Assembly: GCF_000003605.2 (NCBI RefSeq)
Contig: NW_003155252.1
Location: 292,503 to 322,225, forward strand
DNA from: Saccoglossus kowalevskii
Lineage: Eukaryota; Hemichordata; Enteropneusta; Harrimaniidae
Length of the DNA: 29,723 nucleotides
Direction: 5' to 3'
The position numbers and the translations under genes are program-made. Of this stretch, positions 2,437 through 28,378 are shown one piece after another. How positions within the stretch are numbered: position 1 is the first letter of the stretch; the number at the start of each line of letters is the position of its first letter. The notes under the pieces were generated by a model. The model had not been told where the DNA came from. It saw only the letters and a list, made by a program, of their open reading frames with translations, and did no database searches.

Positions 2437-3810
2437 CTAGCGCAGCATCATACAATGTGTTTTGGGGCATTACTTGGTATCCATAGTAACATTCTCATGA
2501 ACGCAACAATGCTCTCCTAATGCTAGCAGGTATATAGTTATACGAATTGACAATAGTGACCACATTTACATGGAGGTCATTTGAGAGGCTTGTGCCATTA
2601 TGATGGAGTTTGTTTATCGTGTACAAATATACCGTCAACACATTTCTCAGAATGTATGCAAAAAACAATATAAAGACATTGAGAAGTGACGCCTGAGTCA
2701 CGCGATGTTCCACCTGGCAATTAAAGTACACGCTTGTTTAATGTTGTTTGTGTTGTTTTGAATAGCCCCGGGCACACAAATGAAACGAACAATTTAATGA
2801 ACACCATGAGTATGTTCTCATAAATTGTGTTGATACATGTGCGTACGTAAATAATCTTATAATTAATCTTATAGCCAGCAAGTTCAAGCTTCGAAACCAG
2901 AAATAAACACGTGAGTCACGCACTACTTGTTGTCCTATTAATAAACATAGACTAACTATACGCCTAGACTTAATTTCCTATTTCATAGACTTTAAATTGA
3001 AGGAAATGCCACTCATTCTCTGCTTGTATAACCTTTATCAACGCATTAACAATCTCCCACAACTTTGTTATGATAGATTTCTGCCATTGATTAATTTCAA
3101 CTTAGGAATATACTACTGTATTACTTCTGCAGGGGTTGACATAAATACAAAATATGGCGCGTATTTGGTTGGGAATCAATGATATTACGAACCCGCATTT
3201 CCAGACGTCACAAAATAAACTATCATTTTTATTGTGACAACACCATATACTGACCCGAAACAAAACACTTCTGCAACAGACTAAATGACTGGTCAATTAA
3301 TGAACAAAATCACATGCGTTGCACTGATTAATTATCACGTTCGAATAAACAACTCAGTATAACGAAGGTGGGAAATTTCGACACAAGGTTCTGACCCCAG
3401 GTACAGTCAACTAGAAGACCATTAATTTTTCAATTACCCTGCACCGCACTCAAAACTCTGTCTGCGATTCTGCGCTGACAACGTATACATGAATGTGGAA
3501 TTCGTATTTCGATAAAAGGTTTGATTCGAAGTACTGTAAACTTGAAAATGAATTTATTAACTTTTAGTGAGTCATAATTGCTTTACTTTATAAACAATCC
3601 CGGGTGTAAATATGCATGCACATTACACTCAATGCGACGACCTGCGGGTAAATTACATCTTTAAATTCATGATTCTGTGATTTGCTGGAGATGACCCGAG
3701 TTACTTTGACAGCAGATCGGTAGTGCATTACCGCTTGATGATCATGTTACAAATTGATTACTTAGGTATCTACGCAATTGTTTTATTTCTGTTCAACAGG
3801 AAACAACCTC
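2437..3810. repeat. Degenerate direct-repeat unit A
   Basis: First of three clearly related units lying head to tail. It opens with GCAGCATCATACAATGTG followed by TTTTGGGG near 2445, matching the same words near 5258 in unit C. The best-preserved part (about 3281-3731) shares ATGACTGGTCA, AAATTTCGACACAA, CTGTCTGCGATTCTG versus ATGTCTGCGATTCTG, and GTACTGTAAACTTGAAAATG with 6162-6668, in the same order and orientation. By eye, identity is roughly 70 percent in the best stretches. No terminal inverted repeats or coding capacity were recognised, so the element type is unknown. A weaker related fragment (GTTTCCTGTTA, GCGTTGCCATC) lies at about 1132-1340. Confidence 0.6.
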
Positions 3811-3915
3811 AAAATTAATCACAACGTCGTCTAGTATTTCGTTTGTAAACCCAACTGCTGGCCCCCTCCCTACTTGCCTGGTCGTCGACTAGTTGCTACA
3901 TTACATGATTTTTGA

Positions 3916-5065
3916 TTATGTGTTATTTGTCCAAAGAAAGAAGTTACGGTAACTGAAGTTAGACACGTCTATCTTTAAGAAATTATTACTATCACATTTC
4001 TCTAAGGATTTGGTTGCTGGCTTGTCTAACACAGATATTAGGAGCCCACATTTCCCGACGACATAACATAATCTCCTGGTTAAAACAATCCGCTTAGTTT
4101 TCCAAGTTGACGTCAGCAAATGACATTGACTATCAACAGGTAGGTTGAGGATTAAAACCACATACGTCACATTGATGTGTTGGTCACATTCAAATAAACA
4201 ACTGAATACAAAGAAAGAGTGAATTTCATATTTCAACACAAGGTCAGGATTTCATGCAGTTATCAAGTTCCAATGTTACAATATGAACGTTAGTGGGTAA
4301 CTTGAACATCGCCAGTTTCACTCCAAAACACTTATACGATTATACGCAAATGTATGTATTTTCCGCGAAATGATACGATATGTGAGCATGTCATCTTTAA
4401 ATTAATTATCAGAATTATTTGATAGAAAGATCGGTAATGCATTTGCTTGTTTCAATTTGATTCTATGTCCATAGCTTCAAATCATAGTGCAATGGTTTCG
4501 CATGAGGACAGAGCATTCTCAACATTATACGTATAGTGTAAAGACATAACGATTTCGTGCTCTGAGGTAGCGGGAAGAGTAGCCCTTTGTGAACAAATCA
4601 TTTTGCGTCTGCTATATCATTCATTATATTTGTGAAAAGTTGGATGTAGAAGAACACATTCGAACCTACTCGGCAGGCAATTGTTTACACAGGTGGCAAC
4701 CACAATGACCAAAGCCGCGAGTTTGAGACACAGGGTAGTACGTACGTTCAATTGCAATGTGCGGTATACAATGAATGTTACTAAATGAATGTAAATGCAT
4801 CCTTATTGTTTTTGGAAAACCGTTTTTTTATAAAGTTTACAGAGAAGTTTGTTTTGCGGTTCTGTAATTCAATACTAGTTAAATCCGTTGAAGTATTACA
4901 TGTATACCCTGTCGAGTGTAAAGTGCATTTCTAAAACCAAGACATTAGGCTTTCCTATTGGATTTCCAATCCCGTGACCCTATTTTAAACAATCGCTATG
5001 CTGATTTACATTTACAATAATTATACCCCTTGCAGTATCAGATCATTTTATCGTATGTTTTTTTT
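3916..5065. repeat. Degenerate direct-repeat unit B
   Basis: Related to units A and C. Near 4035 it has GATATTAGGAGCCCACATTT, matching GATATTACGAACCCGCATTT at 3181 in unit A. Near 4185 it has GGTCACATTCAAATAAA, matching 6212 in unit C. GATCGGTAATGCATTTG at 4429 recurs at 6651 and, diverged, at 3715. TCCAATCCCGTGACCCTAT at 4965 recurs as TCTAATCCCGTGGCCCTAT near 6970. The minus-strand open frame at 3916-4239 has a diverged counterpart at 3102-3296 (both contain KCG followed by a hydrophobic stretch). That frame could be a decayed coding remnant or a by-product of shared DNA. Confidence 0.55.
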
Positions 5066-5249: not shown

Positions 5250-7070
5250 GTATACGACGCAACATCATGCAATGTGTTTTGGGGTCATCTTGGTAATCTT
5301 TCGAATGAAAGATTTACTTACATGTGTCTTTCCTGTGCCTGTGGTTATGTAATTATACGATTCGAAATGCACAACGTTGACAGCCAAGAGACTGGGTCTA
5401 CCTTGTATACTTTGACTCATTTTGAAATAGTTTGTGTGCATATGTACCTCAGAACATTAAAAGAAATATTATACACATAGGTTACGTAACATAATAATAA
5501 ACGCATAGTTTATGTAATATATCACCTGTCCGACAATAAAGATGGTTGGAACAATTACAACAAGTTGCTTGCTAAACTTTACTGTGAATGCTCTTTTTCA
5601 AATGTAATTTATGCTGTATTTAATATTAGATTTCGTCCGTTCTGTGTGACTAACCCGAAATACATGAAAGAAATGAACAATTTAATTAACACTAAAAGTC
5701 TTTCCTCGTTAATGTGTAGATACACTTACATGCGATTTAAAGTGTAAGAAACGGGACATCCTTTGTTAAGGTAATATCATAAACTGAAAATGTCGATGTT
5801 TGATATTGGGGAACTACCAAGAACAAGGCAATAAACCCACTAGTCGTCGATGAATTATTTAAGAGTTGCCGCACAAATTAAATTTTCTATTTAATACAAT
5901 TCATAATAGTAGAAATGCCACTCATTCTTTGTTTGTTTACCCATTTAAAAGTTCTCAAACCACTGTTTATTATCATGATAGTTTTATGTACTTGACAACT
6001 GTGTATTTATTGGAGTATTATTATTCAACACTTGTGTTAATAAGATTGAACGCAAATTAAATTGAATATGTCGTAAGCAGAATATATAAATGGTTTGTAT
6101 TTGGTTGGTTACAATTCATTTCAGGCGCGTAGCACGTGTCGAAACATTGCTATAGACAAAATGACTGGTCAGTTGACCGGTTAAGAGTAAAATCACGTGC
6201 TATACACGGAATATTGGTCACATTCAAATAAATAAATCAGTATTACAAAAGCGGTAAATTTCGACACAACGTTCTGAACATGGGTACTGTCAATAAGACG
6301 CAGTTTTCAGTTACGTTACATCGCACGCACAGTCGAAAATATGTCTGCGATTCTGAGCTGATAGCGTACACATGAGAAAGTGAAATTCGTATTTCTGAAT
6401 AAAGGTGTATTCAAGGTACTGTAAACTTGAAAATGCATTTGTTATCAAGTGTTATTACTAGCGTTATCAGTGATATTGACCCTGAAATGTTAGTAGGTCA
6501 TTAGTGCTTTACAATATAAAAAGTCCCGGTTGGAAATACGTATGCAAGAGTGCGCTGATAACGTATATACAGCTAATGCTCAATACGGCGGCCTTTGAAC
6601 ACTTTAAATTCATAGTGATTCCATGATATGGCCTCGGTTAATTGGCAAACGATCGGTAATGCATTTGTGACAGCTTAATTATGTGTGTATAATTTAAATC
6701 AATGTCGAATAAATGTGATTCACATGAACATAACACCCATCCCATCGTCATTTTATATCACGGTCTTTTCAGCAATGTAAGCACACAGAGCAAAGAATTG
6801 TGTTCACATCGCACTATAATTTGTCAAAGTCATCCTACTTTGTGATTCTAAAATAGATTAATCCCATTAAAGATTAAAAAATGATATGTTTAGTCTTCTT
6901 TATTTGTACTAGTTATCTCGTCGCAATTACGTTCCTAAAGCGAAATCCTTCTGCTGTTATTATTTTGAATTCTAATCCCGTGGCCCTATCCATAACAATC
7001 AGTAGGTAGAGTTACATTTACATTAGTGATATCCGCTTGCAGCATTTGCTTATTTACATTTAACAGTTCG
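5250..7070. repeat. Degenerate direct-repeat unit C
   Basis: The longest unit. It contains counterparts of unit A blocks (5258, 5914 ATGCCACTCATTCT, 6162-6668) and of unit B blocks (6212, 6651, 6970) in a consistent order. Offsets between units vary from about 2.0 to 2.9 kb, so indels have accumulated and the duplication is old. The plus-strand frame at 4998-5480 (160 codons) spans the B/C junction. It is not conserved in unit A, where the equivalent stretch has no long open frame. Confidence 0.55.
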
Positions 7071-11272: not shown

Positions 11273-11504
11273 TCAAAGCTTAAATTGTGAGCCAGAATCA
11301 ATTAAGAAGCCGATAGGGATGGTGGTGTTCACTTTGACTCGCTGATAGAACCGGAGGTCAACAAAGTATAAACCATCTACTGGTTTCAGGTCTGCGTCAT
11401 ATTCTGTCTCATTGATTGTGTCAGATACGTTTAGGCGTGTTCGCAGATCGTTCATGAACCGCACGGTTGTCGTGTACCCAAACAAATGAGCCAAGTGAAT
11501 GCAA
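11273..11504 (-). CDS. Proposed exon 3 of the R7BP-like gene (uncertain)
   Basis: A minus-strand open stretch of 77 codons plus one base ends in TGA and is visibly GC-richer than its surroundings. Exon 2 ends two bases into a codon (AG), and this exon would begin with the single base T after an AG at 11505-11506, so the phase fits and gives Ser. Its first third (HLAHLFGYTTTVRFMNDLRT) has the heptad-like spacing of a helix, as expected for helix c of the syntaxin-like bundle. The remainder has three N-glycosylation-type sequons (NVS, NET, NTT) and ends IPIGFLIDSGSQFKL. Against this: the pyrimidine tract before the acceptor is poor, and no polybasic, cysteine or transmembrane tail follows, although R7BP/R9AP proteins usually carry one. 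The FLIDSGSQ end resembles the active-site turn of retropepsins, so a retroelement remnant is an alternative. Confidence 0.4.
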
Positions 11505-12010
11505 CTATTTTAGGACTTTTCGGCATTTCAAATCAGGCATTACCTGTCATGTATAAGTATGATGGATATAAATATGAGGATAATTTTAATAGTTACTGCA
11601 TGCATGTATGGCTACAGACAATTGTATGACGTACTGTCACTAGTATGTTTAACGAAGCATTGCCTGTACTATACGCCAGGTATAAACTGTGAAATTATCA
11701 TATGATGAATAGATATATTTAAATATCTAACCTTCTTCTTATAAAATGTGAATCATGGCAGTAACTTCAACTTAAAATAAAACACGTTAATTTTGAATCT
11801 GTCAACACCTGTCACAATTATACATGTGTATATGTTGTTCTCTTAATTTTATTATAATTGTTTCCTGTTGCAATGAAACACATTTTAACGCTTTTAGTGT
11901 TACATAAAATTGGACCTATCTCTATATACGTGTACGTTTGCGTCTTTCAATAACTCATTTGTAGAGAGTGATCCTGGGTTTTAAACGAAGCTCAAGGTTT
12001 TACGAACAAT

Positions 12011-12050
12011 TCCTCTCTCTCTATATATATATATATATTTTTTTTTTATA
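12011..12050. repeat. Compound microsatellite (TC)n(TA)n(T)n
   Basis: A run of TC repeats passes directly into TA repeats and then a stretch of T. It lies inside the proposed second intron of the R7BP-like gene. Confidence 0.9.
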
Positions 12051-13037
12051 TTTATTGATCTTTTCATTGTGATGTACTGCGTGGTAATGATGTGATTTTT
12101 TTTGGGAGATGACGCTTACGCATGACTACAAAGCTATCTATGTGTTATAAAATCTATTTATATTTCACATGTCTAAAGGATTAGTTTTTAATGACAGTGT
12201 ATCTTTGTTACCATGGTTACGCTATTGTTATCCTCACATTTTAATTGGGTGGGCCGTATGTGCCTCTGGAGGTCAAATGGATTGCTGATCCTTCGTATGA
12301 AAGAAGTGATGAATTGCTCTCGATAATTTTGGAAATGGATTACTAATACATTTTTTTTGTCATTCGAAAGTATGTTTCCATCGAGGTTGGGCTGAAATAT
12401 ACTCGGATGAATATCAATGTTTCACTTTTGGCTTCGTTCTTCAAGGGACATTAATTGAACTGGTTTAATTTGTTGCTGTCACTGTTGAAACTAGAATTGA
12501 ATACGTATTTTGCGCAGCTACATTTTAGCACATGGAGGTAACATAATGTCTCATTTTCCTCCATGGAGAGTGCTCATACATCTCTCGAATATATATATAG
12601 TCGTCGACCAGTATAAAAAATACGTGATTTTCAAGCTTTGCGCTATGGGGTCTGTACACCATGAATATTCACCAGGCCGACTTGTATTTAACTCGCTAAT
12701 TGCAAACGCCTGTGTGTCTTAAACAGGTCACTGATATTTGATAAATCACCAAAACGACATTTGCATTGGATACAATTAGTAATGCTAGTTCTCAGTGGTT
12801 AGTATCGCGTTAATCGATGTATAACTAACTATTTTCAATCGTTTCTATCAATGGGAGCTACCTCGTACAGTATCTATTTCAAAAACATAGTCACATGGAA
12901 TATGTAAGATGGGAGCGGTAAATTGGATGACTTGTTCATTAATCAGTATTCGTGAGTGTTTGGTAGTTTGTTTGTTTGTTTTGACCACAAAATAGCTGTA
13001 CATTACATATTAATAAATATTAAATGCGAATGCTCCC

Positions 13038-13126
13038 CGAGATCTCGTTGGGGACAATGATAGCTACCAGAGTGTTTTATTCAGTCCCGTCATTGCAATG
13101 ACACTCTCGCTATCAGTGAGATCTCG
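13038..13126. repeat. Nested foldback sequence with palindromic ends
   Basis: The palindrome GAGATCTC occurs at 13039-13046 and again at 13118-13125. Between them lie inverted arms TGATAGC (13058-13064) with GCTATCA (13109-13115), and AGAGTGT (13069-13075) with ACACTCT (13101-13107). The centre holds the palindrome ATTGCAAT. The whole can fold into one hairpin of about 90 nt. It may be a small foldback or MITE remnant; no target-site duplication was identified. Confidence 0.6.
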
Positions 13127-13529
13127 CCAGACATTATATATATCTATGATATATTCATTAAAAACCCTCCAACAAATAATAAATCAGGATTAAGTAAAAA
13201 TAATCAAAATATATGTACACTTCGTCAATGACATCACACAATATATATTTATTTCGAATGATCAATGCGTGGGCTGGTGGCAATATTACTGTTTACATCG
13301 AATTCTTTAAAATGGCGCGACATGTGTGGCGTGTATTCAAAGCTTCATCTGCAAGCAGGTGGATTGGGACACAGTAAGACTCCATATTATTATTTCCAAA
13401 TCATTTTTAGAACGTTTTTTTTATCGATACAGAGATTGCGTTGCACCAGTATGCAGTATAACTACTACATACATACGATAAAATCGCTACTATCACTAAG
13501 AGACAATATAATCTACTATAATATATTAC

Positions 13530-13696
13530 CTGCTTAGATACGGTGCCAGTTTATACTTGGTAACTTTCATGCCTCCCAGGCATTTTCTTCTTATCTTAGT
13601 AATATCTTCTCGAAGTACAGGTGAGTCTGTCTTGTCGCCAATAAAAATAAGAAGCTCCCTGTAGACTGCCACTTGGTTGTTAATTTCCAGTGCAAG
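13530..13696 (-). CDS. RGS7BP: R7BP-like protein, exon 2 (conserved core)
   Basis: RGS7-binding protein anchors R7-family RGS/G-beta-5 complexes at neuronal membranes and so sets how fast Gi/o signals are switched off. This 167-bp exon is bounded by TTTGTCCACAG and by AGCAG followed by GTAAT. It encodes 55 residues plus two bases of the next codon. NNQVAVYRELLIFIGD matches the vertebrate signature NTQVALYRELVISIGD. It is followed by SPVLREDITKIRRK, against CPSLRAEMHKTRTK, and a final KYKLAPYLS, against HQKLAAIS. These correspond to helices a and b of the syntaxin-like three-helix region. The exon starts in phase 0, matching the phase 0 end of exon 1. Identification as R7BP rather than its relative R9AP rests on these motifs; an invertebrate ancestor of both is equally possible. 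Confidence 0.85.
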
Positions 13697-14983
13697 CTGT
13701 GGACAAATGGATAACCATTAGGATCTATAGCTGACGAAAAAAAGTTGATTGCTATGGCAACGCATCAAATTGCAAATGTACATTCTCGTGAGAGGAGTGG
13801 AGATGCGCGTCTATTTTCGTCAACAATTACGTAAAGTTAAATAATATGAAAACTGATTTTACTGTATGCACGTATGGTCAAACATTTACAGCCAAAAAAG
13901 AAAATTAACCGGTTTATTGTTTGAAAAAAAGACGAAATTCTCTTGCTGACAGATGAGAATTTACTTTCAATTACCGACACGTCATCATTGATGGGTACAG
14001 ATTAGAATGGTATCAATTTAATGTAATAATTTATGCTAGGTCGCCAAATAACTATAATGTTATCTATTTAATGAATTGATCAATCAATCAGATATTTGTT
14101 TGAAATACTAACTTGCTGCATCATAATATTCATTTAAACTGAGTCAGGGTTTCATAGATATCGGTGGTTACTGCATAAAGATCACACAAAGCTTTTGTGC
14201 GTATATATTAAGACACAAGCTTCAAGAAATAAGGAAAATTCATCGTACGTAACGACTAAGTAATACAAGAAGCCGATGGGGTAACAGTAAGACTATATGG
14301 ACAGACAATTGATGTATTCGTTACTATATCAGCCGATTCGTGCTTGTACAGTTGGGTTACAATTCTTTGGCGTCGTTTTTTTTTTTCGAGAACGCCTGTA
14401 GTTTCAGACAAACGGTTGATTTCCCTCTTTTTATGTAATTATCGAACTTGTCGTCGTAATATACTGCTTCACAAAAGTACATTACAGGCAAATTGTCGAG
14501 AGATGACAGGCAATGCATTGGAAATTGGATACACATCTGTAGGCATCATTGAAGTACAGCACTGACGGGAACTGCATTTACATTCGTTAATAACGAGGCT
14601 TACCGGTGTATGTCAGTTATATATTGGATATGGAACAAATGGATACAAAGTCTTGACGCCCGTTGACAGAGAATATATAACTATCGGAAACATAGTAGGA
14701 CGTTAGTTTTGCGTAGAAGGCGCCACGAATAACACCGAAGCCGATATGCTGTAAACAAACCTAACTCTGTTTGTTGTGGGTTCATAACACATAGCCAAGG
14801 CAAACGTTACTTGTTAGACATTATATAGACCACTACCGGTGCGGTGTCTATTAGCAGTGGATATTCATTGTGTTGTTGCCTAATACTATATTATAATAGG
14901 AACCACCATCGTAAATTCCATTCACGACTTTCTAAGAATATTATCTTAACGATTTAAAGTAAATTCGTAGCCATTTACACAAA

Positions 14984-16849
14984 ATAATATATTTACTTCT
15001 GAGCTGTATAATAATATATTTACTTCTGAGCTGTATAATAATATATTTACTTCTGAGCTGTATAATAATATATTTATTTCTGAGCTGTATAATAATAATA
15101 TAATTACTTCTGCGCTGTATAATAATATATTTACTTCTGAGCAGTATAATAATATATTTACTTCTGAGCTGTATAATAATATATTTACTTCTGAGCTAAA
15201 TAATAATATATTTACTTCTGAGCTGTATAATAATATATTTATTTCTGAGCTGTATAATAATATATTTACTTCTGAGCTGTATAATAATACATTTACTTCT
15301 GAGCAGTATAATAATATATTTACTTCTGAGCTGTATAATAATATATTTACTTCTGAGCTGTATAATAATATATTTACTTCTGAGCTGTATAATAATATAT
15401 TTACTTCTGAGCTGTATAATAATCTATTTACTTCTGAGCAGTATAATAATATATTTACTTCTGAGCAGTAAAATAATATATTTACTTCTGAGCTGTATAA
15501 TAATATATTTACTTCTGAGCTGTATAATAATATATTTACTTCTGAGCTGTATAATAATATATTTACTTCTGAGCTGTATAATAATATATTTACTTCTGAG
15601 CTGTATAATAATCTATTTACTTCTGAGCTGTATAATAATACATTTACTTCTGAGCAGTATAATTATAATATATTTACTTCTGCGCTGTATAATAATATAT
15701 TTACTTCTGAGCTGTATAATAATATATTTATTTCTGAGCTGTATAATAATATATTTATTTCTGAGCTGTATAATAATATATTTATTTCTGAGCTGTATAA
15801 TAATATATTTATTTCTGAGCTGTATAATAATATATTTATTTCTGAGCTGTATAATAATGTATTTACTTCTGAGCTGTATAATAATATATTTATTTCTGAG
15901 CTGTATAATAATATATTTATTTCTGAGCTGTATAATAATGTATTTACTTCTGAGCTGTATAATAATATATTTATTTCTGAGCTGTATAATAATGTATTTA
16001 CTTCTGAGCTGTATAATAATATATTTACTTCTGAGCTAAATAATAATATATTTACTGTTGAGCAGTATAATAATATATTTACTTCTGAGCTGTATAATAA
16101 TATATTTACTTCTGAGCTATATAATAATACATTTACTTCTGGGCTGTATAATAATACATTTATTTCTGAGCAGTATAATTATAATATAATTACTTCTGCG
16201 CTGTATAATAATATATTTACTTCTGAGCAGTATAATAATATATTTACTTCTGAGCTGTATAATAATATATTTACTTCTGAGCTGTATAATAATATATTTA
16301 CTTCTGAGTTGTATAATAATATATTTACTTCTGAGCAGTATAATAATATATTTACTTCTGAGCTGTATAATAATATATTTACTTCTGAGCTGTATAATAA
16401 TATATTTACTTCTGAGCTCTATAATAATCTATTTACTTCTGAGCTCTATAATAATCTATTTACTTCTGAGCTCTATAATAATATATTTACTTCTGAGCTC
16501 TATAATAATATATTTACTTCTTAGCTGTATAATAATCTATTTACTTCTGAGCTGTATAATAATATATTTACTTCTGAGCTGTATAATAATATATTTACTT
16601 CTGAGCAGTATAATAATATATTTACTTCTGCGCTGTATAATAATATATTTACTTCTGAGCAGTAAAATAATATATTTATTTCTGGGCAGTATAATAATAT
16701 ATTTACTTCTGAGCTGTATAATAATATATTTTATTTCTGCGCTGTATAAATAATATATTTACTTCTGTGCTCTATAATAATATATTTACTTCTGAGCAGT
16801 ATAATAATATATTTACTTCTGAGGTGTATAATAATATATTTACTTCTGC
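14984..16849. repeat. 27-bp-period minisatellite, about 69 units
   Basis: A near-perfect tandem array of a 27-bp unit, readable as GAGCTGTATAATAAT plus ATATTTACTTCT. Because 27 is divisible by 3 the array stays open over long stretches and reads as a nine-residue peptide repeat (YNNIFTSEL) in one frame. Those frames are a by-product and not genes. Variants are clustered: four successive units begin GAGCTC at 16414, 16441, 16468 and 16495, exactly 27 apart, and units with TTTATTTCT cluster at 15720-15980. Three 30-bp units (near 15088, 15658 and 16174) are each followed by the same TGCGCTG variant at 15111, 15681 and 16197. Such clustering is expected from unequal exchange or slippage. Confidence 0.97.
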
Positions 16850-18250
16850 GTTCATTAACGGTTAGTGAGATGTATAAAAAAAACTCATATGATTGCAATA
16901 TAGTTCGTGACACATTTCCGTAATGTATGCGTGAACTGGACAGTCGTGATTATGTTGAAATATCATAATTCGAACATGGTAGTCGTTTCTCATTGATCAT
17001 ACTCTGACGTTCCGCGCAATGTAATACTATTACTTGATTCAAGAAGGTGGCTGATTGAAGTATCCATCATACTGAGAGTATCCTCAAAGTGATAAATTGA
17101 TATTGCATTTACAGATATAATCAGTATTACATGCATATATACGAACATGAAACACGATATTCGAGCTCGTAACTCGGCAAATGAAAAAAAAATTATGTAT
17201 ATATTATACATGCAAACGAGGCTACTATTCACATAACAGACTGCTCAAAATCAGCTGCTCTACTCCAAACGTGTACGTTGCAAATGTTTAAGGCATTAAC
17301 GCACCGCGACGAGCTTTTCCCACAAATTGACAAACTATTATTTTCCATCAGTCTTAATAAGTAATCAGGTAGTACCTGACAAGTAATTATGTCGTTAGAT
17401 ATGTTAAGCATTATATCAAAATTATTCGGAGTGAAATAAGCCATATGTCTTAGAAATTATTATTAATATTATTACTAGATTAAGAAAGATGGACATTATT
17501 CGTATATCAAACGTATAATTGAATAGCGTTAATGTACCTGGTCGTGAGTTCAAAGATTGTGGTGCATGAGGTAATTCGTGTGACAACGTATTCATCAACT
17601 CACAAAGCAACGCATAGTTTATAGGCGACAGCATTTGTTACACGAGGCAGCTGAAAGCGAGTCACCCGTTTCATGGATTCAGTTGAATACTGTAAAATCG
17701 CCCATTCTTTGCCATGGAATTTCAATCGTTGTTTGCCACTTCGGCTACATTATTATATATAATTGTTGATTGTCTGCATTATTATAATGCCAGTAATTTT
17801 ATTGAGTATTTCATCTATTTTTAAGTGAATCCTGAATAACATGCCTAAATGGCGGATCATTATAAACTGTGGGAGGTGTGATGGCAGAATAACTGTGCAT
17901 TTTCTGTTTCTTCACTTAGTTTTGTGGTAACTGTTTTGTTTCCACTTTTTTACACAATGTGAAAAATATATATTTGTATTTTTTTCTGTTCTTGATTCCA
18001 TTCTGATTTTCCCACGTGCAAATTATTTATATCCATTTCTGCAACCATCCTAATGATCGACCACTAAATCGCTACAAAAACCGCGCTTTCAGGGAAATGC
18101 ACCCCAATAATAAGGAATGTCCGACCAATTACTTGAGAGAAGTTGGTTGGGGAATAAATTAACTGCAATTGTAATAATTGCCGAATTGGGCAAATTGTTT
18201 GTTTTAACATGGTATTAAATTACCATATATATACATACATTGATAATTGG

Positions 18251-18268
18251 AGACATAATCTTATGTCT
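18251..18268. repeat. Short perfect hairpin sequence
   Basis: AGACATAA and TTATGTCT are perfect inverted 8-bp arms separated only by TC. It is intronic in the R7BP-like gene and no function is implied. Confidence 0.5.
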
Positions 18269-19620
18269 GATACTACAATACATACAATATTTGGTTAGGT
18301 GATACAAAGTTGTTTATTTCAAATAAACTTGATACTGAACAACATTTAATCTACATAAAAATATACATTTACTTTGAGATAATATACAATTTAAATGGTA
18401 TGTTCAACGTTAATGGTGCGACAACCAACCTGGCAGAAATATAAATATTTTGCCATGAACATCACAGAATAAACATTAACTTGTTCACACTTATTGAATA
18501 TTTTCATCAAACCAATTCTTCAATACTTTTGCAACTTATTAGTGAATCGGTCTAATGTACATGTTAATATTTCTTCTAACATACGATAGTGGTTTTGTAT
18601 TAATAATATTGGTTATTAATGTAATGTTATAATCGGAGTGTGGTGGTTATACCAACTGCAGAAAGACATCAGATATGAATGTAAAACGCAACAATAACTT
18701 ACGAAATATCATAATCATAATCAAAATCGCTAAAATAATAAAATGTGATCATTGCAATTAGTAGTAAGCCAAGTCAACATAACTAAGACGCAAATACAAA
18801 TGTTACCCACAGTAAAACAATACTTTCACTGCGAATGTCTTAAATCTTGCTCGTATTGCCTGGTCCGACGGCAAAGAGGCGTGCTGGCAGTTTTCCACGT
18901 GGATTATTCAACGCTGTGATTTATGTTAACTTAACAATACGAAATCATAAAGTTCCGTGTTCGATTTTTCTCACGTTTAAAGCCACTATTAATAACGGGT
19001 CAAGCGCGTTTATGTGTGTATGTAGTGTTTGAATACATGGTAGATGAGTGGGTTCGGTTAGTGTTGCCATGCCTTTGTGCATTTGCGTGGAACCGGCGCG
19101 GACAGAGTGCTGGGGAGCAAGTCCGTACCCCATTCAATTAAATATCAAAATTTCAAAACATCGGATATTTTCAATTTAAAGGAAGATGTAATCTCAGTGT
19201 ATTCTCCGTAGTTGAAACATTATCATTCCACGAATTGACTAATAATTTTTGGTTAATGGTTCTTTTATTTATTTATTTTTTAAAAAGGTTTACGTTACTT
19301 AGCAACATGCACTGATAATAATCTAGAGGTTACCATTAAATGTAAAGGCGGGCAATCATACTGATTACACATTCGTAATGATCACACCGAGATCATTAGT
19401 AAAATTGCATTTTTATAAAGAGTCGCCCTGTTATAGTGTTGGCTATCATCATTATACAACATTCGTGATTATCGTTAGTATTACACAAGTTGGCGGGGTT
19501 TGAATAACTGTCATATGAGATATGTTCTCAAATATGCGTTGTAGTAATATTCGATTACTTACTATACATATCCAAATTGGTTGTATTTTTCAATCGTGTT
19601 ATATTTTTTTATAGAAATCC

Positions 19621-19649
19621 ATATCACTCACATGATATGTAAGTGATAT
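19621..19649. repeat. 13-bp-arm hairpin with 3-nt loop
   Basis: ATATCACTCACAT (19621-19633) and ATGTAAGTGATAT (19637-19649) pair at 12 of 13 positions around the loop GAT. It lies about 170 bp before the exon-like frame in the R7BP intron. It could be a small foldback remnant or a transcribed hairpin; the stem is too short for a canonical microRNA precursor. Confidence 0.5.
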
Positions 19650-19822
19650 TAAAAAATATTGGTTCTCGTCGTTTTTACGTGCAAAGTGCAAAGCCAGATT
19701 TAGTTTGGTTTGTATTAAACCTCAGTCGGATTTCATAAATGATCATAATTTAGACACTATAGACTAATTGCACAGTTGATTAGATGCTTTTCAACATTCG
19801 GTATTTCAAAGCTGTTGCCTAG

Positions 19823-20012
19823 ACTTCGATGTCCATATTGGGACCGTCGTCAAATGTAGAACGCTAGACACAACTAACATTATTCTGAACTCCTATTTTA
19901 AATACTGGGGCATTTACAGCGGGAATTGCATTCACTCGAATCTGGATCCGAGGCTGAATACAAATAACAATTACAAATGGGGAAAGCACTACATCGTCAT
20001 TGAAGTTTACAG
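19823..20012 (+). CDS. Exon-like open frame inside R7BP intron, strand uncertain
   Basis: On the plus strand the frame is open from 19780 up to a perfect donor, TTTACAG followed by GTGAGT (20013-20018), and its stop (TGA, 20014) lies inside that donor. Possible acceptors are CTAG at 19819-19822 and AAAG at 19808-19811. It would encode about 63 residues, including CRTLDTTNIILNSYFKYWGI and NYKWGKHYIVIEVYR, rich in aromatic residues and with purine-N-pyrimidine codons. YWGIYSGNCIH is faintly like the HWGIYVG...H core of LRAT-type acyltransferases, but the expected His before W is Tyr, so I do not assign it. It has no start codon, so it would be an internal exon. The same codon register read on the minus strand is also open (19864-20097) and begins like a signal peptide (MITFMTVIPFLVIVV). 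One of the two, or neither, is real. Confidence 0.3.
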
Positions 20013-22308
20013 GTGAGTTATGGGTAGCACCGGATGCAGGAAAATCGTTTGATACTACGATCACTAGAAATGGAATGACCGTCATGAATGTTATCAAATA
20101 TTAGTTAACAAATCACAGCTCAGTATTTAATTTATATATAATACTGTTAAACCATTGTTTTTCACATACGCATGATGAGCTGCCAAATACATGCATGCAC
20201 CATGATAGACATTCTGATATTTGGTAAAAACGTTTGTTTTTCTGTTTTGTTTTTCTTTTAGGTTAGAATGTTACGTTCCCTAATTCAACGTGAAGCCATT
20301 ACATAGAAGCCACATATTACGGGCATATTCCTTACATTGAGATTTCAGACGAATTTAATCATTGCGCCGAATTCGCCAAAATAAAATGCAGTAATTTTAA
20401 GAAGTTATCCATGATATCTGAAAAGGCCATTTCACCTTGATACCACCTTATAAGCAGGGTTTAGTTTATTCTTCTACGATTTCCTCTGAATATTGCTTTA
20501 CGCTATTGGTTGTTGAATTTTGACAACCGGAGATTGAGTCACAGCCGAAACGTACGCAGCTGAAAACATTAGCGGTATATTATTAGCTGTAAATTGCAAA
20601 CTCCCACGGGCATTAACTCCTTTTTACGCGCAATGGAATCGAGTTACGTGTACTCCTGTTACGCCGATAACAAATAGGTAAAGAGAATAAACCTGCGTGC
20701 CGGGAAGTATGAAACATTGTACATATCCCATCGATGTATCCTAATTACTCGTACATCCGGTTCTGAACTCCCGTAAATGAAACAGATTTAGCAGTATATA
20801 TATCGGCAGTGAGCCACAGTTATAAAATTAGTTTACTATATGTAGCCATTAGTTATTTAATATTTAGATAAAAAGAGAAAATCTAAATACGAACTCTCAA
20901 TGTAAGACCCTAAAAGGTAATAATAATGTAACCTAGTTCTCTGTATTCTTATTTGAAAATACAAGATACATCCTATTACCACACGATTTGACCAAATTAT
21001 TTTTCACCTTTCTAAAATAAAATATTTTATACTGACACAGTTTTTTTTTTTTTTATAAATTGAGAATAGCAACAGCCTGAGCGAAACCATGTATCAGTCT
21101 GACTAATGGCTCATTTTTCTTGAGGGGTCGTGTTGCATTTGACTAAATAATAAACACAACACCACATGTTATCCGGCATGTCTCCGTATGACCTGGAAAC
21201 ACCGCTGAGAAACCAATGTAAAATAAAATACGGATCAGAAGGAAATACTATTCATTGAGCTTCTATTAATTGAGTGCAGTGTGTGTATACAGTATAAAAT
21301 ATGTATGTACCAATGATCTACCATAGAGTGTCAATTGCTTCTATTAATTAGGTCACCTCGGGTCTACCGTATACCTAGCTATGTTCATGGACATACGCCG
21401 ACTGCTCGTGTGCTGCATTTATTTTAGCACTTACATAAACCGACGCAATTCGGGTTACTCTATCAGATAACAGACAGTTATCTCGTCTACACATTGCTGA
21501 CCCACGAATAACTATTGCAAGAGAAACATCTAGCATTATTGTCATATTATAAGCTCGATATATAGCAATAAATAGTGTATAACCATTATAATGAAAATAA
21601 CGCATTTTACGGTACTTGTCGGCCATTAATACATATCATCAAATTTCTTTGACTTTTGCAATATGGCTTTATTTTATGCTGTTGTTAAAAAAAACAGATA
21701 AAAAATATTGTCACCTAACGTAAATATCTATGCAAATGTTTATTTTCGAGTCATTTATCAAAAAAAAGTAAGACCATATTATGTATTATGTTAAACATAA
21801 GCGGAGGAATCACATTTTATTGCAAATTTCTGATGAATGTTAATGAATTCTCGTCTCAAAATGTGATGACTTGTGTCCAAATCAACAATTATTTAGGCTG
21901 AAAATGTGTTGCTTGGTAACGCTCGAACATTCTATTACCGACGTAAAAACGAGTGTTATATAATCGATCATATTTTAAAATTAATTCATATACTTGTTTA
22001 TGGCTGCCGTAAGTAAGTGTTACTATTGCTTCATGGTACACACGGTTCTCAAAATATCAGCTACTTTGGAATTTGGTGTCTCGTCACAACAAGCATACAA
22101 AATAATTAGTTCGATACGCTCAGAATACGAAGAACATTATTTTTTTTTTAAAACCGGTGATCGTACATAAATATTTTTGCCAAATAAAATTAGGTTTTCT
22201 TTTATCATTTTGTTTTCTGTATTCTCGAATTCAGTATTCATCATTCAAATGTGATTCCCGGCGAAATCAACGGAAAAGTACATTAATGTTTTGAACATAT
22301 CCACTTAC

Positions 22309-22446
22309 TTTAGAGCACTCTTCCTGTGCCTGTATATTAGGAGAAATGTGCAAATCGCTGATGGACGTGTCGTACTGGGATCCCCGCGAAGGCTGCGAGT
22401 TGCTGCTCTTTGGGCGACAACCCCGCCCTACTGTTCCCCCGTTCAT
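22309..22446 (-). CDS. RGS7BP: R7BP-like protein, exon 1 with start codon
   Basis: Forty-six codons from ATG (22444-22446) to the donor AAA followed by GTAAGT at 22303-22308. The N-terminus is Ser/Gly/Arg-rich and probably disordered (RPKSSNSQPSRGSQYDTSIS), as in vertebrate R7BP before its helical region. The last residues, AQEECSK, join LALEINNQ of exon 2. This matches vertebrate ALDDCKMLVQEFNTQ position for position without a gap, which is the main support for linking exons 8.6 kb apart. The start is the first in-frame ATG after an upstream TAA. Its context is weak (T at -3), and it is the last of three overlapping ATGs. A 140-codon frame on the opposite strand (22346-22768) is antisense to this exon and has no recognised signature. 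Confidence 0.8.
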
Positions 22447-22545
22447 GCATTCATTTACGATGACGCGCTCAAGCCGGCATGTTTTCGAATGTTATGAATA
22501 CGACGCGAACACCATATATGGGTTCAGGAAGTCGGTCCTACGGGT

Positions 22546-22553
22546 TATAAATA
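22546..22553 (-). promoter_or_regulatory. Candidate TATA/MEF2-like element upstream of R7BP
   Basis: On the minus strand CTATTTATAACC lies about 100 bases before the R7BP start codon, within a GC-richer stretch (about 22340-22770) that probably marks the 5' end of the gene. It could serve as a TATA box, with a start site near 22520, or as a MEF2-like site (CTA, four A/T, TAA). Read on the plus strand the same bases spell TATAAATA, so orientation is ambiguous. Confidence 0.3.
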
Positions 22554-22870
22554 GCCACCCAACGACTGGCGTGTTAAGTGCGGTTGGGTCAATGCGGAGT
22601 CTTTTCATTTACAGACTACATATCCTGTGCGGAAAGGATGGAACAGCACGCTCGCCGACCAACATCAACATTGGAATAGCTACGTTGTTTCCAGTCGCGT
22701 CGTTAGGAGTAATAAGCACTCAAAAGGGACGCCACAGACAACTAATGGTAAGCATGGTGAATCCCTAGCTAAGTGAAAATAATCAACTGCAAATTGTTTG
22801 TTTCAAATCGCGTATGACATCACTGACGGGATGATTACAATTCCAGGGACGGGAGCAGGATTTTTGACAG

Positions 22871-25620: not shown

Positions 25621-25790
25621 TTATTCACTGGGTTTTAATTTTGCATATTTCGCTGACTGGAAAATGCGCTAAATTAAAACCCAGTGAATAACAAACAAAT
25701 TAGCATAGAACACATTATCTAAATGATAAAACCCACTGAATATGCCTGAAATGGTTAATCAGCGAAATTTAAACCCAGTGAAAATTAGTA
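25621..25790. repeat. Foldback repeat with 21-bp perfect arms
   Basis: The arms at 25621-25641 (starting TTATTCACTGGGTTTTAA) and 25671-25691 are perfect inverted copies over 21 bp, with a 29-nt loop. Two more copies of the core follow on the right: AAAACCCACTGAA (25728-25740) and TCAGCGAAATTTAAACCCAGTG (about 25759-25780). The second pairs with the left arm plus its inner TTTCGCTGA in a larger nested hairpin. This is typical of a MITE or foldback element with repeated subterminal motifs. No protein is encoded. Confidence 0.75.
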
Positions 25791-26724: not shown

Positions 26725-27387
26725 GTATTACTAGAATAGATCAAATGCGTGTTTCGAATTTCAGAGAAGATTTTGAAAAGGTTGTACTGGTTGGTTTTCG
26801 ACCCAATTTCTGTCGTATATATAATAAAAACGCTCGCCGTGCTAGAAGTTTGAGGGAAATTTGCCAGATAATGGTTTACGTATACAGAAAAATTATCGTC
26901 CCGATGGGCACCATTAAGCAAATAAGTGTTCTGTTTGCAAATACTGATCTATAGTTTGGGAAGCCAATACATTCGGTGGAGCACTACATAACTTGCTAGT
27001 TGCTTCCTCAGACTGTTGACTTTTTAACTTCAATTAATAATCACTTGAGAAGTTATTTTGGCTTGTGTGTGAATCTTTCTGTCTAAGGCGTGTCCCTCGT
27101 ACAGCGACCCATTCACAACGCTTTGAGAATGTACGTGTATTTGTTTACTTTCCACTAATTTTTGTTTTAAACTTTGGTGAACCATGTGCCATTATATTGT
27201 ATGGTATTCACCAACACCAGGAACTAACAGAGTTTTTCGATAGTAAAATCCCTCGCTGTGAGCTCAAGTCACAGTTCTAGAGGCCGTACCTACACACGAT
27301 TTGGTGACATCATAAAATTCATGTCGTGTAAACTGTAGGTTGCACGTGACAGCACACTATCCTCGGGGGGGGGCGGACATCCGGGCA

Positions 27388-27420
27388 TTTTCACCGCCTG
27401 GCAACCCGCGGCGGTGAAAA
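27388..27420. repeat. GC-rich hairpin, 11-bp perfect arms
   Basis: TTTTCACCGCC (27388-27398) and GGCGGTGAAAA (27410-27420) are perfect inverted arms around an 11-nt loop (TGGCAACCCGC). A nine-G run precedes them at about 27365-27373. The half-sequence TTTTCACCGGC recurs near 27571. It lies in the GC-richer stretch 1 kb upstream of NUDT15 and could be a paired protein-binding site or a transcribed stem. Confidence 0.5.
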
Positions 27421-27559
27421 CAAAGGCCCAAACTCGCAGAAAACGGTACTTTGGGATGATTGTTGAGACTCCTCTGAACAGTGTAACAAGATTAGCTCTA
27501 CGTGTGTAACATATATAAATTTGGTTGTTCAGGATTACTTCAAAGTTGAGTTTGTGTTG

Positions 27560-27725
27560 TTTTCTCGAATTTTCACCGGCTCGACCGGCGTTCCACAGCA
27601 GCGCGCACAGAGCCCGTAGAAATGCATGTACAGTGGTGCGCGTCGTAGCAACGTGGAACGTCTTGTGACGTAGCTCCGCCCCCGAGGATACCAGGTAGTG
27701 GACTCGGTAGTGGCGGATAAGGGCT
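27560..27725. promoter_or_regulatory. CpG-rich segment with GC box upstream of NUDT15
   Basis: This stretch has markedly more C+G and CpG than its surroundings. It includes a GC box (CCGCCCCC, about 27676-27683) and a CRE-like TGACGTAG next to it. It could be a distal promoter or enhancer for NUDT15, which starts about 700 bp downstream, or an unrelated start region. The minus-strand frame crossing it (27535-27813, 92 codons) has no recognised motif. Confidence 0.3.
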
Positions 27726-28378
27726 TGACAACGCTAGACAAATGATATGGATGTACCGACAGTATAACTCTTTTCATGTTTGTTTTTTTCAGACATGGGT
27801 TATGTATATGCACTGGAATCCCACAAGAATGATTTTTAGGGATTTTCGTCGACCATATTCATACATGTAATTCAATGAGAATGATAAAATTACATTCGTG
27901 TCTTGTATGAGGTGTCAGTGTTTGATATCTCCGTCTACAGAGGTTTTCTGTAGTGAACGACATTTCATGTGCAAATATCGAACGCAATAGTCGAACATAT
28001 TAATATATGATGAAAATTAATGAAAATGTTACGTTTAGCTACCTCCGCAAAGTAAGTAATGTGACGGCAGCTTTAAGTAACCATTGACATACCTGATACG
28101 TCTGAAGGTAGACGTGCCAAATTAAAGAGACGGTTATAAAATTAGGCTAAATCTATTTAGTTCCATTGGCCATAAGAATAATTGAAAAATAATTATTAAT
28201 TAAAAACAAAGCAAACAGGTTATGGAAATCGATATCGTTAGTATGCACCGTCGACGTCACCATGTCCTTTGTTTCATTTTTGGTCATTCACTTACGATCT
28301 TACCGTCGATCTTACCAGGTGAAACATTCAACTTGTCTGGCGCCCTCAACATTTATTGCACGAATGATTTTGTTTTAA

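Follow-up and report, generated by a model that had tools for sequence, protein, structure and literature searches.

On the minus strand of a stretch of 29,723 bases from Saccoglossus kowalevskii (contig NW_003155252.1, positions 292,503 to 322,225; the whole of it is called the window below, and positions are counted from its first base), we find what is probably, with a probability of about 0.86, the 5' part of a spliced animal gene of ordinary type, a member of the R7BP/R9AP family that stands nearer to R7BP. The encoded protein is most likely an invertebrate relative of R7BP and R9AP, to be compared with RSBP-1 of C. elegans. What is directly observed here is the sequence match and the splice signals with their phases; a pair of helices is predicted. 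A preliminary description, made from the letters alone, had proposed an R7BP-like gene spread over at least 9 kb with an intron of 8.6 kb. The identity is supported, exon 2 being the top tblastn match and exon 1 ending at the top-ranked donor, and the intron is confirmed at 8,612 bases, from GT at 22308 to AG at 13697. The extent was overstated: the visible part, two exons from 22446 to 13530, spans 8,917 bases (8.9 kb).

Exon 2 matches R7BP and R9AP

We compared the window by tblastn with the human R7BP and R9AP sequences. Exon 2 came first in both cases, at an expectation value (E) of 1e-6 for R7BP (next match 3.7) and of 6e-4 for R9AP (next match 0.47). Two helices are predicted in it, at residues 2-22 and 26-41, and an N-terminal helical region with specific similarity to R7BP and R9AP, which is one mark of the family, is present. 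The minus strand is open from 13696 to 13529, between TTATCCATTTGTCCACAG and TAATAT, with the translation LALEINNQVAVYRELLIFIGDKTDSPVLREDITKIRRKCLGGMKVTKYKLAPYLSR; the exon begins in phase 0, as had been proposed, with LALEINNQVAVYREL from 13696, directly after TTATCCATTTGTCCACAG. It was also correctly described as having no usable ATG, the sole in-frame ATG being internal (13570). Its frame begins behind a stop, at 13717, and no ATG stands between there and the exon, which must therefore be preceded by another exon.

Base 13529 is the G of the donor GT, and an in-frame TAA (13528-13526) overlaps the likely donor AG/GTAATA (a slash marks the splice site throughout), so that the exon 2 frame, read through the donor, gives R and then TAA. 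A transcript retaining intron 2 would hence end the protein at the exon boundary. We regard it as highly improbable that such retention yields a complete protein of 102 residues, made of the N-terminus and helices 1 and 2, as an anchor-free, soluble short form; were it so, the short form could compete with the anchored protein.

Exon 1 and the junction

Of the GT sites in phase 0 within 16 kb upstream of exon 2, 609 are preceded by 8 open codons. Scored against RALDDCKM of R7BP and MAREECKA of R9AP together, the donor at 22309 ranks first of all of them with 38, against 17 for the next site and a mean of -16; it is also first for each target taken singly (15 against 11 and 23 against 10). The best score among 1,150 such sites in a plus-strand control was 19. 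The motif [DE][DE]C../GT occurs a single time in the same 16 kb, where 0.06 occurrences are expected (200 first-order simulations). The donor is near-consensus and in the right phase: as the preliminary description had it, the exon ends in phase 0 with ...NIQAQEECSK/GTAAGT, its last base being 22309. QAQEECSK supplies the acidic-Cys motif before helix 1, which we take to be a mark of the family on the basis of two human sequences.

Across the junction the peptide aligns without gaps to both R7BP and R9AP, as proposed; the alignment had also been called exact, which it is not, the identities being 2/7 with ALDDCKM of R7BP and 4/7 with AREECKA of R9AP. The joined peptide aligns to R7BP over 60 residues with one gap, beyond the junction. 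With exon 1 joined to exon 2, both comparisons improve: the match to R7BP goes from 36.6 to 42.4 bits, that to R9AP from 29.6 to 37.4 bits. The tblastn alignments carry no weight for the junction, because they extend by a few residues into translated intron and place a chance Cys under the conserved Cys.

Exon 1 is indeed antisense to a longer frame: the plus strand is stop-free from 22295 to 22765, over 157 codons (140 amino acids from its ATG). A frame of this size is possible by chance (the longest stop-free run in 40 first-order simulations had a mean of 129 codons and a maximum of 181), and it has no Pfam match.

Table 1. Coordinates of the features of the proposed gene in the window
Feature	Position	Strand	Description
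TATA-like element	22546..22553	-	TATTTATA; about 100 bases above the proposed ATG; pattern match only, without control
Exon 1, coding part from the proposed ATG	22309..22446	-	46 codons, MNGG...QAQEECSK; donor AAA/GTAAGT, phase 0
Intron 1	13697..22308	-	8,612 bases, GT-AG; splice sites read directly, splicing putative
Exon 2	13530..13696	-	167 bases, LALEINNQVAV...LAPYLS plus two bases of a split codon; donor AG/GTAATA, phase 2

Points against the model and alternative readings

Several points weigh against reading the two exons as one R7BP-like gene. The first lies in the comparison sequences of human R7BP and R9AP, which were not drawn from database records. The second is that R7BP and the syntaxins have a distant common ancestry, which leaves some slack in assigning a family from 60 residues. 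The exons could then come from a syntaxin-7/12-like SNARE gene and not from that of an RGS anchor: the peptide has a weak match to Pfam Syntaxin_2 (PF14523) at E 0.03-0.05, and a DSP.LR stretch is common to it and to STX7. This likeness to the endosomal Qa-SNAREs of the syntaxin 7/12 type is remote and confined to the N-terminal helices; at 14 and 14.8 bits it stays under the Pfam gathering cut-off of 26.5, so that the peptide does not qualify as a member. We consider the SNARE origin extremely unlikely. No Pfam family was found at E 0.01 among the 135 window frames scanned, exon 2 missing the limit at E 0.03; the window has 185 stop-free frames of 48 codons or more, and the 135, among which one was cut down to exon 2, remain after omission of 16 over a minisatellite and 34 of 48-51 codons. 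A search of PDB sequences with the joined peptide gave a single match, to a nitrogenase protein at E 1.5, and the same search with R7BP gave no match. Among viral contigs, 14 stretches fit a pattern and none of them codes for a relative of exon 2.

The third point is that the similarity of exon 1 is confined to its last 8 residues, the remainder being without clear signal. Taken whole, the exon is not distinctive: its R7BP score was reached by 50 of 1000 shuffles and its R9AP score by 173 of 1000. Moreover, the proposed start ATG at 22446 has a weak context, with T at -3, and four ATGs precede it between 22600 and 22440, at 22515, 22480, 22454 and 22450 (the frames of three of them end after 7, 3 and 3 codons, and that of the other runs for 37 codons out of register). 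We therefore hold the start codon at 22446 to be doubtful; the frame stays open back to 22491, which means that the first coding base could also derive from an upstream splice. These features would suit a gene in which exon 2 is a genuine R7BP-family exon and 22446-22309 a chance fit, the true first exon coming from an alternative promoter, from an unranked exon between 22309 and 13697 or from upstream of the window. The first rank of 609 by a wide margin, the near-consensus donor, the right phase and the 4/7 R9AP identities at the junction argue to the contrary, and we judge another first exon unlikely.

The fourth point is the fate of the rest of the gene. Downstream of exon 2 (13529-1), we looked for exon 3 behind minus-strand acceptors with at least 9 pyrimidines in 15, leading into frames of at least 15 codons, by comparison with the C-termini of R7BP and R9AP. 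Although 72 such open frames lie in the right phase, no candidate for exon 3, with the third and the SNARE-like C-terminal helix, rises above chance in this stretch. The best phase-matched candidate, with an R7BP score of 38, was rejected: it exceeded 20 earlier simulations (maximum 35), yet its score was reached in 16 of 200, and it aligns to about 206-236 of R7BP and not to the segment due next. In any phase the best R7BP score is 41, reached in 12 of 200 simulations; the best phase-matched R9AP score is 30 (20 simulations: mean 28, maximum 31). Nor is there, in the same stretch, a palmitoylated/polybasic or transmembrane tail above chance. The single polybasic/Cys candidate ends near 3817 (0.49 expected; the plus-strand control also gave one), and the two hydrophobic ones lie near 2160 and 2723 (1.65 expected); by eye, the tails near 3817 and 2160 have no convincing acceptor. 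The low end that had been given to the gene, at 11273, also fails: the 78-codon frame 11509-11273, tried as an exon, has no similarity to R7BP or R9AP (its scores were reached by 260 of 1000 and 572 of 1000 shuffles respectively) and no Pfam family.

Two exons alone are compatible with a decayed gene, and no more exons are recognised across the 13.5 kb downstream. A pseudogene fragment, left by a decayed copy of an R7BP gene, is all the same very unlikely in our view: both exons are open, GT and AG are intact and the phases match, exon 2 is flanked by introns and hence is not part of a processed copy, and the C-terminal half of R7BP may be too diverged for the search used. For the R7BP-like gene that we prefer, the remaining exons, which would code for the rest of the bundle and the membrane anchor, have either diverged beyond recognition in 13529-1 or lie outside the window.

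Other features of the window

Inside intron 1 lies a minisatellite with a 27-bp unit, in about 69 copies (14983-16848). Over most of it the content in G and C (GC) is 21-26% and the observed/expected ratio of CpG about 0.15-0.3, while this ratio is mostly 0.8 to 1.4 elsewhere, outside a poorer stretch near 10-11 kb; the window as a whole has about 35% GC, and its composition would fit DNA of an invertebrate animal. First-order simulations predict 15.7 stop-free frames of 80 codons or more; the window has 40, of which 31 lie outside the minisatellite. This surplus weighs against the view that the window is all chance sequence; those of the frames that were scanned gave no Pfam family. One minus-strand frame is stop-free over 147 codons (27293-27733), where the local GC is about 51% (27251-27750); it has no Pfam match.

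Diverged direct copies lie at 2441-3620 and 5258-6546, in five pieces that are 74-88% identical and offset by 2.8-2.9 kb. A third copy, which is partial, is found at 4154-4244 (71%), and the whole has the look of an old duplication or of a mobile element. Self-BLAST also gave two imperfect palindromes, at 25621-25691 (82%) and 1734-1868 (72%), of the type left by small inverted-repeat elements. No tRNA was found in the window by ARAGORN in its bacterial setting, and no Rfam match at the gathering score.

Comparison with known anchors and proposed function

R7BP (RGS7BP), the vertebrate neuronal anchor of R7 RGS-Gbeta5, has 24/52 identities with exon 2. The two are also alike in the ungapped junction and in a Ser-rich N-terminal extension ahead of the conserved Cys. 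They differ in the length of the N-terminus up to the junction, which is 46 residues in the window and 55 in R7BP, and in that the C-terminal half of R7BP, with its polybasic/palmitoylated tail, is not found in the window. R9AP (RGS9BP), the photoreceptor anchor of RGS9-1, has 12/34 identities with exon 2 and shares AxEEC at the junction. R9AP begins a few residues before the conserved Cys; the window gene differs from it by a longer N-terminus and by a coding intron. A passage of PMC5795056 gives R9AP a transmembrane tail and describes its group as generally without a coding intron. RSBP-1 resembles our gene in being an invertebrate member of the family; a passage of PMC3357403 describes it as the sole C. 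elegans homologue of R7BP/R9AP, acting with EAT-16.

By homology, the following mechanism may be proposed. Exon 1 would give a short Ser/Gly-rich N-terminus, probably unstructured, and exon 2 would supply the first two helices of a syntaxin-like helical bundle. The product would bind R7-family RGS-Gbeta5 complexes at their DEP/DHEX part, keeping them at the membrane and making them more stable; activated G proteins would then be turned off sooner. For this gene we infer splicing, expression, the RGS partner, the membrane anchor and the function from the DNA, and whatever the protein may do beyond its first two helices we infer likewise.

Finally we must note that small, distant exons, one of them antisense to a longer frame, escape scans of open frames, and that homology together with splice phase can join them. 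The gene, with its long first intron, is of an ordinary, well-known kind. The family was already known outside vertebrates, from C. elegans to mammals, and the window probably adds one more invertebrate member to it.
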